Positions 3,931-26,738 of a DNA stretch of 26,738 bases are shown here, piece after piece. Within the stretch, counting starts at the first letter, position 1; every line of letters begins with the position of its first letter. Position numbers and translations under genes: made by a program. The DNA lies in the IMG/VR virus record IMGVR_UViG_3300046376_000068, positions 1-26,738 of that record, one strand, 5' to 3'. The stretch is from a virus. The notes beneath the pieces were generated by a model. It was given only the letters and a program-made list of their open reading frames with translations. It ran no database searches and was not told where the DNA came from.

Positions 3931-6156
3931 CTAAACAATATTCAAACTCATATTATTCCCCGCCGTATACAATAATTTAATTTTCTGTGATTTATTTTGA
4001 TCTGTATCTGTACTAACATCAATAATAAACCCGCTAAATTTATTACCATCAACACTAAAATCAATTCTGCCAGTAGGGTACATATCAATTAAACTAAGCA
4101 TATTAACAGGCTCTTTTACCAATATTTCAGCTACATACGGCAGAAATAGTTTACCAGGTAAAGAAACAATAGCCGTATTAGCCCGTTCAGATACCGTAAA
4201 TCCATTGGCATCCGTGGTGATTAAGTTGTAATTTTTTAATGCCGATGTAAAAATTATATTTTCTCCGTCCAATTTATCTAACATACCATGTAAATAATCA
4301 CCGTGACGCGATAAATTTCGAGCCGGGCTAATGGGCATATTATACAAATTGGTGGTTACACCAGAATAAGACGGCATAACATATGGTATGTATTTACCGC
4401 CAACTGGCACCGAATCAACTACTATCATAAATACGTCATTGTTTGGTGCGCTGTTTTGAGTTCCTGCACCTGAATTACTTATGTTTATCCGCAATCCCTC
4501 AATACCCAAACTGTCACCCCGGTACACGCTAACTAAATCCAATTGGTTATTAATGGCTTTAATCGGAAATTGACGAAAGGCAGTACTATTAAATTCAGTC
4601 ACCCCGTTTAAATTGTCATATTGCTGATCTACATAACCATACTGAACCGAATTAAAGATATATGGCAAGTAAACCGATAAGCCAAAGGAACCAACCTCGC
4701 CAACGTCTATAGCTTTTAGATTGCCTTTAAAGAAATACGATTTCTGTTCTAATACCGAAGTTTCCACGCCACCAATTATTTCAGTGCCCCATCCTACATT
4801 CAAAACGGCGTTCATGGATTTGAAAAAATCAGTCCATGTAGTTACTATTTGCGGTACGCTGTTATCTGTCTGGCAGTACCCATCGTTAGCAGTTGTAAAA
4901 CTTGCGTGGTTAGCATCGGCAAAGAAAATATCACCTGTATGGTATGTTGTAGCTCCGTATACAATATCACCAAATACAACTCTATATTTTTGCCCGGCGT
5001 TTAATGTATCTCCCGCCTGAACATCGGTTATTTCAACTGGCCTTATAGCATCACCACATGTTATTTGCAAACCAACAAACTGTTGAGTTAATAAATATGA
5101 CTGACAAGGTATATTAATACTGCCATTCATTTGCTTCATTAGCTGCTGGAACAAGTAAAAAGCATCTACGGTTAAACAGTCTGTTGCCGGGCTAATTGTG
5201 TCATATGTTGCCCGCCATGTTCCCGAAGTAATATAAGCGTACGTTCCCGGCGCATTTGACCGTGTATAGAAAAATAACTTTTCTCCTGCCACAACATCCA
5301 CAAAGAAATCACCCTGATACGATATTGGATCAAAGTTTGGCGGGTTAATTTTACCGTAGAACTGAAATACCTCGCCATGTATTGAACTATAAATACTAAC
5401 CTCACAATCAGTGCTACCACCCAATGAAATAATAGCACCCTCAATATCAACGTTTGTAAACTTAACGCGTCCTGAAATTTGGGCTATATAAAACATACAC
5501 CCGGCCGTTGCGAAATTGGGCGAACCATCATAAACTATTTGGGGTTGTGCGTATGCGCTTGCTATAACTGACTTTTGATCGTTATTAACGATTTGCAAGG
5601 CCGGAAACTCTCCGTTGTTAGCATCTGGACGTATACCCTGCACAATCCAATCGGCGTACTCCTGAAGCTTAATAGGGGTTAAACTAACCGTTTTAGCCAA
5701 TGGTACATCCAGTGGTATGGTATATTTTACATCGGCATAAGCCTTAACGGCTTTCATTATACCGCCCTGAACTAAATTACAGGTAACAATATAACCATCA
5801 ATTGAACCGGTATCTTTAAAATTGGTAAAATCAATATCGCCTAAATAAAATACCTCATAATTATAGGTAGTTGCATTGAATTTAGCTATCTCTAATTGAA
5901 CTTGTGCGCCTATGCCATACGTATAAAACTGTTCACGTAAAATTGTAGCCCCATCTAACACAAAATCCATTGGTACAGTAAAACTGCGTATCATACCGTA
6001 ATAAGTATCGCTACGCGCCCAGTTAATTAAATTACCCTCCCAATTTCTCGGGGCATTAGGCAATAAGTACCTGTCGGTAAAATTAACAATTAGCGTAAAT
6101 GCAAACTTGTTTGGTTGCCTGTAAAATAGATTGTCGAGATATTCGGGCTGTTGCAT
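3931..6156 (-). CDS. Large tail-tip/baseplate-type protein (741 aa)
   Basis: This long, soluble, aromatic-rich protein directly follows the tape measure gene with a two-base gap. It is rich in Tyr, Asn, Val and Ile strands, with no signal peptide, transmembrane segment or catalytic motif that I can recognise. In siphophages the genes after the tape measure encode the distal tail and tail-tip hub, so a baseplate or hub role follows from position and size. I cannot assign it to Dit or Tal families from sequence alone. The N-terminal part (FTLIVNFTDRYLLPNAPRNW) begins without any export signal. The gene is intact at both ends. Confidence 0.65.
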   Translation of the reverse strand: MQQPEYLDNLFYRQPNKFAFTLIVNFTDRYLLPNAPRNWEGNLINWARSDTYYGMIRSFTVPMDFVLDGATILREQFYTYGIGAQVQLEIAKFNATTYNYEVFYLGDIDFTNFKDTGSIDGYIVTCNLVQGGIMKAVKAYADVKYTIPLDVPLAKTVSLTPIKLQEYADWIVQGIRPDANNGEFPALQIVNNDQKSVIASAYAQPQIVYDGSPNFATAGCMFYIAQISGRVKFTNVDIEGAIISLGGSTDCEVSIYSSIHGEVFQFYGKINPPNFDPISYQGDFFVDVVAGEKLFFYTRSNAPGTYAYITSGTWRATYDTISPATDCLTVDAFYLFQQLMKQMNGSINIPCQSYLLTQQFVGLQITCGDAIRPVEITDVQAGDTLNAGQKYRVVFGDIVYGATTYHTGDIFFADANHASFTTANDGYCQTDNSVPQIVTTWTDFFKSMNAVLNVGWGTEIIGGVETSVLEQKSYFFKGNLKAIDVGEVGSFGLSVYLPYIFNSVQYGYVDQQYDNLNGVTEFNSTAFRQFPIKAINNQLDLVSVYRGDSLGIEGLRINISNSGAGTQNSAPNNDVFMIVVDSVPVGGKYIPYVMPSYSGVTTNLYNMPISPARNLSRHGDYLHGMLDKLDGENIIFTSALKNYNLITTDANGFTVSERANTAIVSLPGKLFLPYVAEILVKEPVNMLSLIDMYPTGRIDFSVDGNKFSGFIIDVSTDTDQNKSQKIKLLYTAGNNMSLNIV

Positions 6157-20603: not shown

Positions 20604-20882
20604 GGTTACAAAGGTTACAAAGAGGTTACAAAGTTGAAACCATGTTTGTAACCCAAAAAATTCCCTTTACATATGTTTAAATGATGTTTTTTATAGTAAG
20701 TTACAAACATTACAACTTTTTTATAAAATTTACGCACACATGGTAAATTATATATATTTGTATAAAAAGTTTGTAACTTTTGTAATAATCGATGTAAGTA
20801 TCTGATAATCATATTTTTAACCTCTTTGAACTTTGTAATAACTTTGTAATAAGTTGTAATTTTTACCCCAAACTTTGTAACT
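20604..20882. repeat. Iteron-like cluster of TTTGTAAY repeats (candidate origin or regulatory array)
   Basis: This gene-free stretch of about 300 bases holds many copies of one short word. GGTTACAAA occurs at 20604-20612, 20613-20621 and 20624-20632. The inverted form TTTGTAACC is at 20645-20653, making a perfect 9-bp inverted repeat with the third copy around a 12-nt loop. AGTTACAAA is at 20699-20707, TTTGTAACT at 20770-20778, TTTTGTAAT at 20778-20786, TTTGTAATA at 20832-20840 and 20843-20851, and TTTGTAACT at 20874-20882 inside the helicase end. The spacer between is very AT-rich. Clusters like this beside a helicase gene are typical of replication origins; a regulator array is the alternative. 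Confidence 0.6.
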
Positions 20883-23504: not shown

Positions 23505-24443
23505 TTAAATCAAATTATCCATTATCCAATCACAAAAATCATAACCTTTTTCGCCGTTCAACATCACACATTCCCAATGCCCCGGTATTAACAGGCTCAA
23601 TTGATCTGCTTTTTCCTCCCATCTTGCTTCTGCCCCAACATCCGGATGCAAAACTATATTTCTACCCTCCAAAACCTTACACCTATCATAAGTCAAATTA
23701 GTTAAACTACCGCTGGCTAAACAAACCCAATTCGGATAGCATAGCGAGGCGAAAATGGCCGTTTTCTCACTTTCAAATATATGAACTTCGCCAGGGTTGG
23801 TTAATAGGTGTTCGCCGAATAGGCAGATAGATAGATTATAATCCGGTTGCTTCAATATCTTGTGAGCCCATGTAATTAACGGCGTAGGTTCTTTAATTCG
23901 CTTGCCGGTTTCGGGATTGTACGACATGATTTTTCCACCACGAACACCTTTACTATCCTGATACCAAAATATGCAGGCACCAAGCCAATACTTACTTGTT
24001 CCGACCCGATAATCTGCCAGTGCTTTAACAGATTTAATCCCGAACTTACTAAACAAGAACTGTGCGAAATCGTTATGATTATACCCTTTAAGAGTAGCGT
24101 ACATCAATGAACTATCAGTATAACTAATTGGCAACGGTTCAGGGGCTATATATTCCGGTAATTCGTCCGGCTGTTCAATTGCTAAATATTCCAACGCCTC
24201 TTTGTATGTAAATCCTTTGTGCCGCTTTAAGAAGTCTATCACATCGCCACCTATTCCGCTGCTGTAGCACTTGAATATGCCTTTAGATTTGGAAACGATG
24301 AAGCTGGGTGTACGTTCCTGGCAAAAAGGGGACATACCTTTATAATTGGCTCCGTCACGTTTTAATTGTACAAACCGGCCTATCACTTCGACTATGTCTG
24401 TTTGTGATTTGGCGTATTTTATTTGGTCGAGTGGCTTGCCCAT
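23505..24443 (-). CDS. DNA primase: degenerate CHC2 domain plus Toprim (312 aa)
   Basis: A DnaG-like primase that makes RNA primers. The N-terminal fold aligns with CHC2 zinc-binding domains (GMSPFCQERTPSF, then GIFKCYSSGIGGD). The usual ligand positions Cys-His-Cys-Cys are here Ser38, Cys41, Cys59 and Ser62, so the zinc site is incomplete. Zinc-less CHC2 domains of this sort occur in Bacteroidota mobile elements and phages. A Toprim part follows: FESEKTAIFASLC with its Glu, and NIVLHPDVG in place of the usual DxD. There is no helicase domain; the separate SF3 helicase gene supplies it. The start overlaps the methyltransferase end by 25 bases. Confidence 0.85.
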   Translation of the reverse strand: MGKPLDQIKYAKSQTDIVEVIGRFVQLKRDGANYKGMSPFCQERTPSFIVSKSKGIFKCYSSGIGGDVIDFLKRHKGFTYKEALEYLAIEQPDELPEYIAPEPLPISYTDSSLMYATLKGYNHNDFAQFLFSKFGIKSVKALADYRVGTSKYWLGACIFWYQDSKGVRGGKIMSYNPETGKRIKEPTPLITWAHKILKQPDYNLSICLFGEHLLTNPGEVHIFESEKTAIFASLCYPNWVCLASGSLTNLTYDRCKVLEGRNIVLHPDVGAEARWEEKADQLSLLIPGHWECVMLNGEKGYDFCDWIMDNLI

Positions 24444-25447
24444 TTCATAGGTATAAAACTAAATATGTGTTTAATTGTATTTACATTCCAGCCGTTACCC
24501 AGCATCTTATATCGTTGGGTATTAGACACACCATTCGTATAATTATCAGGTACATTTTGTAATCTTTCACACTCTATGGGAGTTAATTTTCTGAATTGAT
24601 TTTGTTCATCAAGTAGTATATGCTCTTTAGTTAAAGATGTCGTTAGGCAATTTGATTTATCATCTTCTCGAGCGACTAATTCTTTTGCCCGGCGTGGCGA
24701 AAAATCCCTCTTGTGTATTTTCATGTATTCAGACCTGATTTTTTTAGCTTCTTCAGTTCTGCGTTCTGTAAATACTATTTGCCTCCTAGATTTTAAAAGG
24801 TACTGCTCTAATGATGTACCTTTCCAGTAATTAGCATCGATACAAAAGGATTTATCCCGATCAACAACCCCGCTTTCTAATATTGATGGCAAGAGGCACT
24901 CGGTATCTTTTGGCTGTTCAATGTTTGGAATATTAGTCCAGTAAAGCCTATCTCTATTTTGAGCAGATACCAAATTGCTATTTATCCTAATTGGTTTAAC
25001 TCCTAATATTTCACTAATCACATCCTGATACTTTTTAGCCATATTGACATTTTCCAAAAAGAATAATGTGCCCTCATTTTCAAGAATATTTGAGTTTAAT
25101 ATTCTTACAAACTCAAAAAATAATTTACTTCTCGGGTCTTCAAAATTAAGCTGTTTGCCAGCAAAACTAAACCCTTGGCATGGGCTACCGCCGATAATTA
25201 GGTCAATCTTGCCATCAAATACAAAATCGCCTGCTTCGCCATAGTGGATAACAGTATCGCCATAATATGGATTTAACCTAACTTTGGTAACATCGCCTAT
25301 ATGTACAATATCAGGCCAATTGGCTTTAGATACCTTAATAGCATAAGGGTCAATTTCACTTGCGAAATAATTTGTTACTGGAATACCTGCCCGTTCTAAG
25401 GCAATACGACCGCATGACATGCCGTCAAATAAACTTAATACATTCAT
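24419..25447 (-). CDS. DNA C5-cytosine methyltransferase (342 aa)
   Basis: Transfers a methyl group to C5 of cytosine in DNA. Motif I is VLSLFDGMSCGRIALERAG. Motif IV is GGSPCQGFSFAG, with the catalytic Cys in PCQ. Motif VI is FFLENV and motif VIII is AQNRDRLYW (QxRxR). The C-terminal motif region IX/X reads RKLTPIECERLQNVPDNYT and YKMLGNGWNV. The target-recognition region lies between about 190 and 280 and contains FSPRRAKELVAREDD. All core motifs are present, so it should be active. No matching restriction enzyme is visible, so it is an orphan and likely protects phage DNA. The start overlaps the upstream gene by four bases. Confidence 0.95.
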   Translation of the reverse strand: MNVLSLFDGMSCGRIALERAGIPVTNYFASEIDPYAIKVSKANWPDIVHIGDVTKVRLNPYYGDTVIHYGEAGDFVFDGKIDLIIGGSPCQGFSFAGKQLNFEDPRSKLFFEFVRILNSNILENEGTLFFLENVNMAKKYQDVISEILGVKPIRINSNLVSAQNRDRLYWTNIPNIEQPKDTECLLPSILESGVVDRDKSFCIDANYWKGTSLEQYLLKSRRQIVFTERRTEEAKKIRSEYMKIHKRDFSPRRAKELVAREDDKSNCLTTSLTKEHILLDEQNQFRKLTPIECERLQNVPDNYTNGVSNTQRYKMLGNGWNVNTIKHIFSFIPMKWASHSTK

Positions 25448-25719: not shown

Positions 25720-25898
25720 AGATACTTTGGGTCTGTTAACGTTATTTTAAATTGTTCAACATTTAATTTATACATAACAATCGTATGTATCGGTTCGCCT
25801 ATTTTAATTCCCCTATAAATCATGATACATCGATAGTAAATATCGCCGCTTACCAGAGTTGATTGCATGACCCTATATCTCTTTTTCATATACTCCAA
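25716..25898 (-). CDS. Small hypothetical protein (60 aa)
   Basis: This is a short, basic, strand-rich protein: VMQSTLVSGDIYYRCIMIYR, then IHTIVMYKLNVEQFKITL. It has no membrane segment or motif. Alternative starts are the Met at residue 4 and Met at residue 11. The frame overlaps the 84-aa gene by 13 bases at its start and the 91-aa gene by four bases at its end, typical of tightly packed early phage genes. Function unknown. Confidence 0.5.
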   Translation of the reverse strand: MEYMKKRYRVMQSTLVSGDIYYRCIMIYRGIKIGEPIHTIVMYKLNVEQFKITLTDPKYL

Positions 25899-26140
25899 AA
25901 TTCAACCCTACCAAACTTCTTAAATCTTTTCACAAACTTATCATCTGGACATTGTAAAGCCTGCTTAATCGCTGTAACAGAATTACGTGAACCGATATAT
26001 TTATGCAGCTTATTAGCTCTTAAAGTAGTGCGGTAATACCTACCGATATGATGATGTTTATTCGCTGTGAACCGAATTATAAACAGGTTATTTAACTGTT
26101 TTTCGGCTATTAGGTTTTTTAGTGTTGTACGGCTGTCCAT
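25886..26140 (-). CDS. Small basic hypothetical protein (84 aa)
   Basis: A strongly basic protein (many Lys, Arg and His) beginning MDSRTTLKNLIAEKQLNNLF, with a central His/Arg-rich strand region (ANKHHHIGRYYRTTLRANKL) and a C-terminal helix plus FKKFGRVEFW. The charge suggests nucleic-acid contact, but no family is recognised. It lies 62 nt after the hexapeptide protein stop and overlaps the next gene. Confidence 0.5.
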   Translation of the reverse strand: MDSRTTLKNLIAEKQLNNLFIIRFTANKHHHIGRYYRTTLRANKLHKYIGSRNSVTAIKQALQCPDDKFVKRFKKFGRVEFWSI

Positions 26141-26202: not shown

Positions 26203-26738
26203 CTACACAGTATTATAATTAAAGTTATGAAACATTTCAGCCATAATGATATAGTTATAATATTCTTGTATTTGCTCGGTTTTGTAACTATTATCTTTAC
26301 CGATAGCCTCATACTTTTCTTTCCATTCAGGAATTGAATATTGATGACAACCAATTGAAAGCATATTATTGCCACAATAAGTAACAGAATGTTGTGTGCC
26401 ATTAATATAAAATCCGGTAAGTAATACAATTCCGTTCCCGATGCTGGCGTCGTCCCCGATGTTGGCGTCGTCCCCGATGTTGGCGTCGTTCCCGATGTTG
26501 GCGGCGTACCCGATTTTGGCGCGGTTCCCGATGCTGGCGTCGTACCCGATGTTGGCGCGGTACCCGATGTTGGCGTCGTCCCCGATGTTGGCGCGGTTCC
26601 CGATGTTGGCGGCGTACCCGATTTTGGCGCGGTACCCGATGTTGGCGTCGTCCCCGATGTTGGCGCGGTTCCCGATGTTGGCGTCGTCCCCGATTTTGGC
26701 GGCGTACCCGATTTTGGCGGCGTTCCCGATGTTGGCGG
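26203..26738 (-). CDS. Left-handed beta-helix (hexapeptide-repeat) protein, N-terminus cut by window edge
   Basis: The frame is open from the right edge to TAG at 26203-26205 (177 visible residues). About 17 consecutive hexapeptides of form A-[NKS]-I-G-[DNY]-[DAR] match the [LIV]-G-x4 rule of left-handed beta-helices, as in hexapeptide acyltransferases and gamma carbonic anhydrase-type proteins; about 5-6 full turns are visible. The C-terminal domain after the repeat reads TQHSVTYCGNNMLSIGCHQY, SIPEWKEKYEAIGKDNSYK, then a helix. This arrangement resembles a recurring phage and gut-element protein type with repeats followed by a '..IGC...IxEWxxxYxxIGxxxxYxxEQIxEYxxYI..' tail. No catalytic His/Asn of acyltransferases is visible, so a scaffold or binding role is likelier. 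Confidence 0.85.
   Translation of the reverse strand, partial: ANIGNAAKIGYAAKIGDDANIGNRANIGDDANIGYRAKIGYAANIGNRANIGDDANIGYRANIGYDASIGNRAKIGYAANIGNDANIGDDANIGDDASIGNGIVLLTGFYINGTQHSVTYCGNNMLSIGCHQYSIPEWKEKYEAIGKDNSYKTEQIQEYYNYIIMAEMFHNFNYNTV
26436..26738. repeat. 18-bp tandem repeat (16 full copies plus 15 bases), GC-rich
   Basis: Each 18-bp unit follows [act]CCCGATGTTGGCGTCGT with three variable points that change the encoded hexapeptide. About two thirds of bases are G or C, well above the rest of the window. Copies 4-5 equal copies 10-11 and copies 8-9 equal copies 12-13, so larger segmental duplications are present. Unit length is a multiple of three, so copy changes keep the frame. Confidence 0.95.

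Follow-up and report, generated by a model that had tools for sequence, protein, structure and literature searches.

In left-handed β-helix (LbH) proteins, the hexapeptide rule defines which positions of each unit face outward, and the acyltransferases among them normally use a catalytic histidine and an acyl-donor site. The family phrog_5353 consists of phage proteins annotated without function and includes a gene of Flavobacterium columnare phage V156 (E = 9e-75). The zinc-finger arrays of PRDM9 are encoded by a coding minisatellite with copy-number turnover, in which variation is mostly non-synonymous and lies at three contact codons per unit (PMC3890296). We analysed a 26,738-base virus sequence (hereafter the window) whose terminal gene is a real, unusual member of this known but unexplained phage family. 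The profile match joins window residues 2–171 of 177 to profile positions 70–248 of 256 (E = 4.2e-37), covering both the repeats and the C-terminal region; the N-terminal profile part, positions 1–69, would correspond to the portion of the gene beyond the contig end, which cuts the gene so that its 5′ end is missing.

Table 1 Features of the window.
Feature	Position	Strand	Evidence
Partial gene, 177 aa + stop, phrog_5353 member	26203..26736	-	Open frame; phrog_5353 E = 4.2e-37
Homogenised coding minisatellite, 17 x 18 bp = 17 hexapeptides A-[N/K/S]-I-G-[N/Y/D]-[D/R/A/G]	26431..26736	-	TRF, unit table, codon counts, Pfam Hexapep 1.5e-11
Conserved C-terminal module (C-cap), about 75 residues	26203..26430	-	Alignments of relatives, HMM tests
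Downstream neighbour gene, 84 aa, without family match	25886..26140	-	ORF list; Pfam and PHROG profile searches
C-5 cytosine DNA methyltransferase, non-structural neighbourhood	24419..25447	-	Pfam 2.5e-41, phrog_116
DNA primase-like protein, CHC2 zinc finger + DUF6371	23505..24443	-	Profile matches

A first-pass annotation, made from the sequence alone, had described near-identical hexapeptide units with variants at only three points, set by single-base changes, and a bias toward G/C-ending codons; these observations are partly confirmed. As assembled at the contig end, the minus-strand array comprises 17 units of 18 bp, all in frame (Table 1); unit number and order are uncertain in this setting, whereas the unit types present can be trusted more. 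TRF detected a period of 18 (16.9 copies, score 393), far above chance, with a second reading at period 36 (score 442). The codons for Ala (GCC), Ile (ATC) and Gly (GGG) are invariant across units, and variation is indeed restricted to three points (N/K/S, N/Y/D and D/R/A), plus one G in the last unit. Single-base changes explain part of the variants but not all, as GCC to CGC takes two. The codon bias was borne out: GC3 is 0.95 in the array, effectively a sample of about six codons rather than a hundred because the array consists of copies of one founder unit, versus 0.24 in the remaining gene and about 0.2–0.4 in neighbour genes. The fixed codons oppose the AT-rich codon usage of the genome, and GC3 across relatives' arrays ranges from 0.10 to 0.89. 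Many related contigs also start within the array (e.g., L026, L030, L061, L064, L065, L067 and L072); such breaks are expected of assemblers failing on repeats, so the copy number and order in the window are provisional. Every array analysed here is assembled contig sequence, mostly metagenomic.

The closest full-length relative (L009) is 62% identical to the window protein. Other relatives occur at loci L002/L010/L012 and L025–L037, in F. columnare phages and Aeromonas phage Ahp1, and further ones in gut phages (L006/L007) and Vibrio phage 1.081.O. A search of 84,980 bacterial and archaeal species genomes yielded 3 loci only, and in the bacterial family around L051 a match was present in 1 of 300 genomes; the hexapeptide gene is therefore essentially a phage gene. 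Literature searches returned no paper on the hexapeptide plus C-cap family, and a PADLOC scan of the hexapeptide proteins gave no match. The surrounding genes are mostly non-structural. Beyond the window, judged by eye rather than by profile, they include RecT-like and SSB-like genes plus a small HTH-like one beside L002, and methyltransferase-, ParB-, ATPase- and HTH-like genes at other loci. In F. columnare phages, the hexapeptide gene lies on an island (L003:5215–6870) that FCL-2 and VK48 lack. Copies of a stretch of roughly 390 bp flank this island and suggest insertion via recombination. For these phages, extra terminal DNA in the 2011 and 2014 isolates is reported to correlate with broader host range (Laanto 2017, PMC5524643). 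At L034, two repeat-protein genes adjoin: directly upstream of the hexapeptide gene (1862–2854) lies a 330-aa protein with NSGxx-type repeats, whose start we take to be DUF7666-like. Elsewhere in the window, an 11-bp AT-rich direct repeat, AACTTTGTAAT, occurs in three copies between two of the listed ORFs (20829–20860) and is a possible regulatory or origin element. Rfam and tRNA scans gave no matches.

The sequence provides good evidence that the window array would fold as a left-handed hexapeptide helix, as the first-pass annotation had proposed. The protein matches Pfam Hexapep at 43.9 bits against a cut-off of 27 (E = 1.5e-11), the array carries the tandem [LIV]-G-x-x-[small]-x pattern, and the solved relatives found by sequence are LbH proteins. 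Structure prediction did not independently confirm the fold. The AF2 model of L009 contains a β-β-α N-terminus, strands every six residues and confident C-cap helices, but it is weak overall (pLDDT 64.6, pTM 0.39), and a fold search against the PDB returned no match below E = 1. The best BFVD match to this model reached 3.5e-5, and the matches included phage pentapeptide proteins, with poor superposition; following this lead, no pentapeptide gene was seen in the two stretches of Listeria P100 examined. By the LbH hexapeptide rule, the three variable positions would face outward. The arrays showed neither face preference nor ladder, with no prism face favoured, and a flat ice- or lattice-binding face was accordingly rejected.

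Name-based annotation would make these proteins hexapeptide acyltransferases that, for example, modify host glycans. Among curated families, they match LpxD, LpxA and NeuD best. Further in line with this annotation, an N-acyltransferase-family domain is reported for ORF 67.1, one of the additional ORFs of F. columnare phages (Laanto 2017, PMC5524643); this ORF is likely the F. columnare hexapeptide relative. However, all matches fall far under the curated cut-offs (best, 58.9 bits versus 207), and the 17 uninterrupted units of the window array contain neither a histidine nor a loop insertion. We therefore dropped this reading as highly improbable.

Silent and amino acid-changing variation was compared among the units of 14 hexapeptide (LbH) arrays, with end units dropped. 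At codon bases 1 and 2 of the three outward-facing codons, π ranged from 0.14 to 0.50, whereas four-fold degenerate sites had zero diversity in 13 of the 14 arrays (the exception, L032, had 0.33) and buried codon positions a π of 0.03. Mean π was 0.298 at exposed and 0.024 at four-fold sites (Wilcoxon p = 1.2e-4 over the 14 arrays, not all of which are independent, since L010 and L012 are paralogues). Exposed sites are thus on average ~12-fold more diverse, and the difference holds in nearly every array. Consistently, in pentapeptide arrays the four-fold site of Ala showed zero diversity in 7 of 8 cases, with exposed π of 0.19–0.33. LbH-like repeat proteins without the C-cap had four-fold diversity of 0.5–0.8 in three cases; L015 differs. 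This array (L015:1425–2156), on a 151-kb viral contig, consists of hexapeptides, has no recognised C-cap and shows zero four-fold diversity. At L014 and L016 (about 4001–4550), tail-fibre-like proteins of >1200 aa carry long LbH-like repeats that, in contrast to the C-cap family, vary at silent sites. The fixed Gly codon varies by phage (GGG, GGC, GGT or GGA), which indicates that the arrays were homogenised independently and that neither a shared DNA motif nor codon preference explains the pattern. In the F. columnare and Aeromonas members, the repeats are not homogenised.

The window array is a coding minisatellite whose variation matches the PRDM9 pattern of diversifying selection at contact residues; this signature appears to be new for the family, as the literature searched held no description of it. 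It points to selection for variability in a binding surface and recurs across almost every related phage examined. The contrast between amino acid-changing and silent variation, with large copy-number differences between relatives bearing similar caps, indirectly supports the fast-evolving binding face suggested by the first-pass annotation, whose interpretation of the repeat is, as a whole, partly supported. Alternatively, the array could be a tolerant rod-like spacer subject to neutral slippage, with unconstrained exposed positions, drifting copy number and no selection for diversity. The near-random unit order, the lack of a favoured face and the widely varying array length fit this explanation. 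It predicts, however, equal diversity at exposed and four-fold sites, against an average difference of ~12-fold, with a difference present in nearly every array, and we consider it unlikely.

Array length differs strongly between close relatives. L006 and L025 share 93% identity in their upstream DNA but have 5 and 15 units, and L051 and L052, from one Flavobacterium MAG, differ about twofold, at about 37 and 15 inner units with 93.8% identity upstream. Copy number is therefore not fixed among the relatives overall; it is fixed in the F. columnare lineage, where 51 isolates share ≥99% identity over the gene with no change in length or copy number and the repeats have already diverged. The metagenome contigs L029 and L030 are near-identical; their sole differences fall within the first 54 bases of one contig, where the assembly is unsafe. 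On contig IMGVR_UViG_3300042114_000016 (L002/L010/L012), whose ends overlap by 333 identical bases, the hexapeptide gene and an overlapping small HTH-like gene are tandemly duplicated; L010 and L012 have different arrays, and the same small HTH-like gene follows both copies.

The first-pass annotation had also read 72- and 108-bp offsets in the window array as block duplications, the latter equal to two helical turns and hence fold-preserving. These offsets do show the highest mean identity, at marginal uncorrected permutation p values of 0.054 and 0.028, respectively, and the longest exact run is 60 bp at offset 72 (null 95% = 54, 99% = 67), but duplication of whole-unit blocks was not significant (p = 0.29). 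The argument from whole turns did not hold. The number of units between caps takes all values modulo 3 among relatives, single-hexapeptide differences occur, and the two significant internal block duplications found among the arrays cover 13 and 8 units, numbers not divisible by 3; whole helical turns are thus not required, and a whole-turn constraint is ruled out. Unit order in the arrays is near random.

Unit heterogeneity might instead be a matter of negative design, serving only to prevent mis-stacking, domain-swapping or aggregation of identical coils in an otherwise structural rod. Vertically stacked LbH units (i, i+3) do tend weakly to differ, although this signal is not significant (Stouffer z = −1.76, p = 0.08), and neighbouring pentapeptides differ (p = 0.01). 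On the other hand, identical neighbours are kept in some arrays (L027 and L032), and at offsets 4 and 5 pentapeptide units resemble each other more than expected. In our judgement, negative design is an improbable explanation of the diversity.

The array is followed by the C-cap, with the pattern ...H.V.Y.G...IGC...I.EW.....IG....Y...QI.EY..YI..., which recurs in relatives bearing other solenoids. HMMs trained on hexapeptide C-caps matched proteins with other solenoid kinds. As those loci had been fetched via a short, 10-residue C-cap motif, the test was rerun with the motif masked. VYGNA-type L061 and L063, GGxFHx L008, L064 and pentapeptide L065/L068 still scored above every shuffle (E = 2e-11 to 0.006), and L050 gave E = 0.05. 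The Flavobacterium pentapeptide group L038–L052 did not exceed the shuffles in the masked test, with nothing left of its strong unmasked match; C-cap homology to this group was therefore rejected, the group having been found partly because it was searched for. N-cap homology between the hexapeptide group and L038–L052 was likewise not significant. L038–L052 still share with the C-cap family the motif, its location right after the solenoid and a similar predicted topology. The C-cap is thus common to several repeat types, including one pentapeptide type (L065/L068, classed as such by sequence), and position and topology suggest wider sharing. No solved structure was convincingly related to the C-cap by sequence (best E = 0.33).

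The link to pentapeptide proteins raises the possibility that the window protein is a DNA-mimic inhibitor of a DNA enzyme, like MfpA and Qnr. At least one pentapeptide type (L065, L068) has the C-cap, and the L040 pentapeptide protein, which modelled well (88.3), matches known pentapeptide folds, including MfpA and Qnr. Yet in our tests the C-cap homology of the L040 group did not extend past the search motif, and diversification would be unexpected for a fixed DNA-like surface. The arrays, moreover, are near neutral rather than strongly acidic: they are mildly charged, with a net −12 to +2 per 100 aa (window array, net −3 in 105 aa), which makes DNA mimicry very unlikely.

Our preferred reading, to which we assign a probability of about 0.5, is that the array forms a diversifying contact surface on a left-handed rod, and that the phage protein carrying it is intracellular and binds a host target that itself changes. 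The array would fold as a left-handed hexapeptide rod, and recombination or slippage would gain, lose and convert unit copies faster than silent mutations build up. Selection would then retain new combinations of exposed residues, making the rod a diversifying contact surface in the mode of PRDM9 or TAL effectors, with the C-cap as the presumed constant part of the protein. The protein would be intracellular and probably expressed early, binding a changing host target in host takeover or counter-defence; we infer this timing and target, and with them a recognition-rod mechanism with early host interaction. A bolder version, in which a shared C-terminal 'handle' takes different rods (left-handed hexapeptide, right-handed pentapeptide and other kinds) that evolve like PRDM9 or TAL effectors and whose unit order and number specify the host molecule in an arms race with the host, is tentative and seems doubtful to us. 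If the preferred reading is true, phages possess a natural set of modular rods for binding, with a specificity that can be read from the repeat and is still changing. Zero silent and high non-silent unit variation would then be a simple signature for such proteins among uncharacterised phage genes, and the same signature could help identify their host targets.

Compared with known systems, the window protein shares with its phrog_5353 relatives the predicted hexapeptide helix and a matching C-terminal region, and it differs from the F. columnare and Aeromonas members in that their repeats are diverged. With LpxA, LpxD, GlmU and NeuD it has in common the hexapeptide motif and presumably the left-handed helix, but its array lies far under those families' cut-offs and lacks their histidine and loop insertion. 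MfpA and Qnr are also β-solenoid rods, and one phage pentapeptide type bears the same C-cap; they are, however, right-handed quadrilateral helices with a 5-residue unit, in contrast to the 6-residue Hexapep unit of the window array. Diversity-generating retroelements likewise focus variation on exposed residues. Such an element was rejected here: the changes are not limited to adenine, one variable column containing only G and C, and reverse transcriptase (PF00078) was found in 0 of 12 contigs, which may be incomplete. PRDM9 shares a coding minisatellite homogenised by copying, with change favoured at contact residues (PMC3890296); its fold and host are unrelated, and the resemblance is one of evolution, not of family membership.
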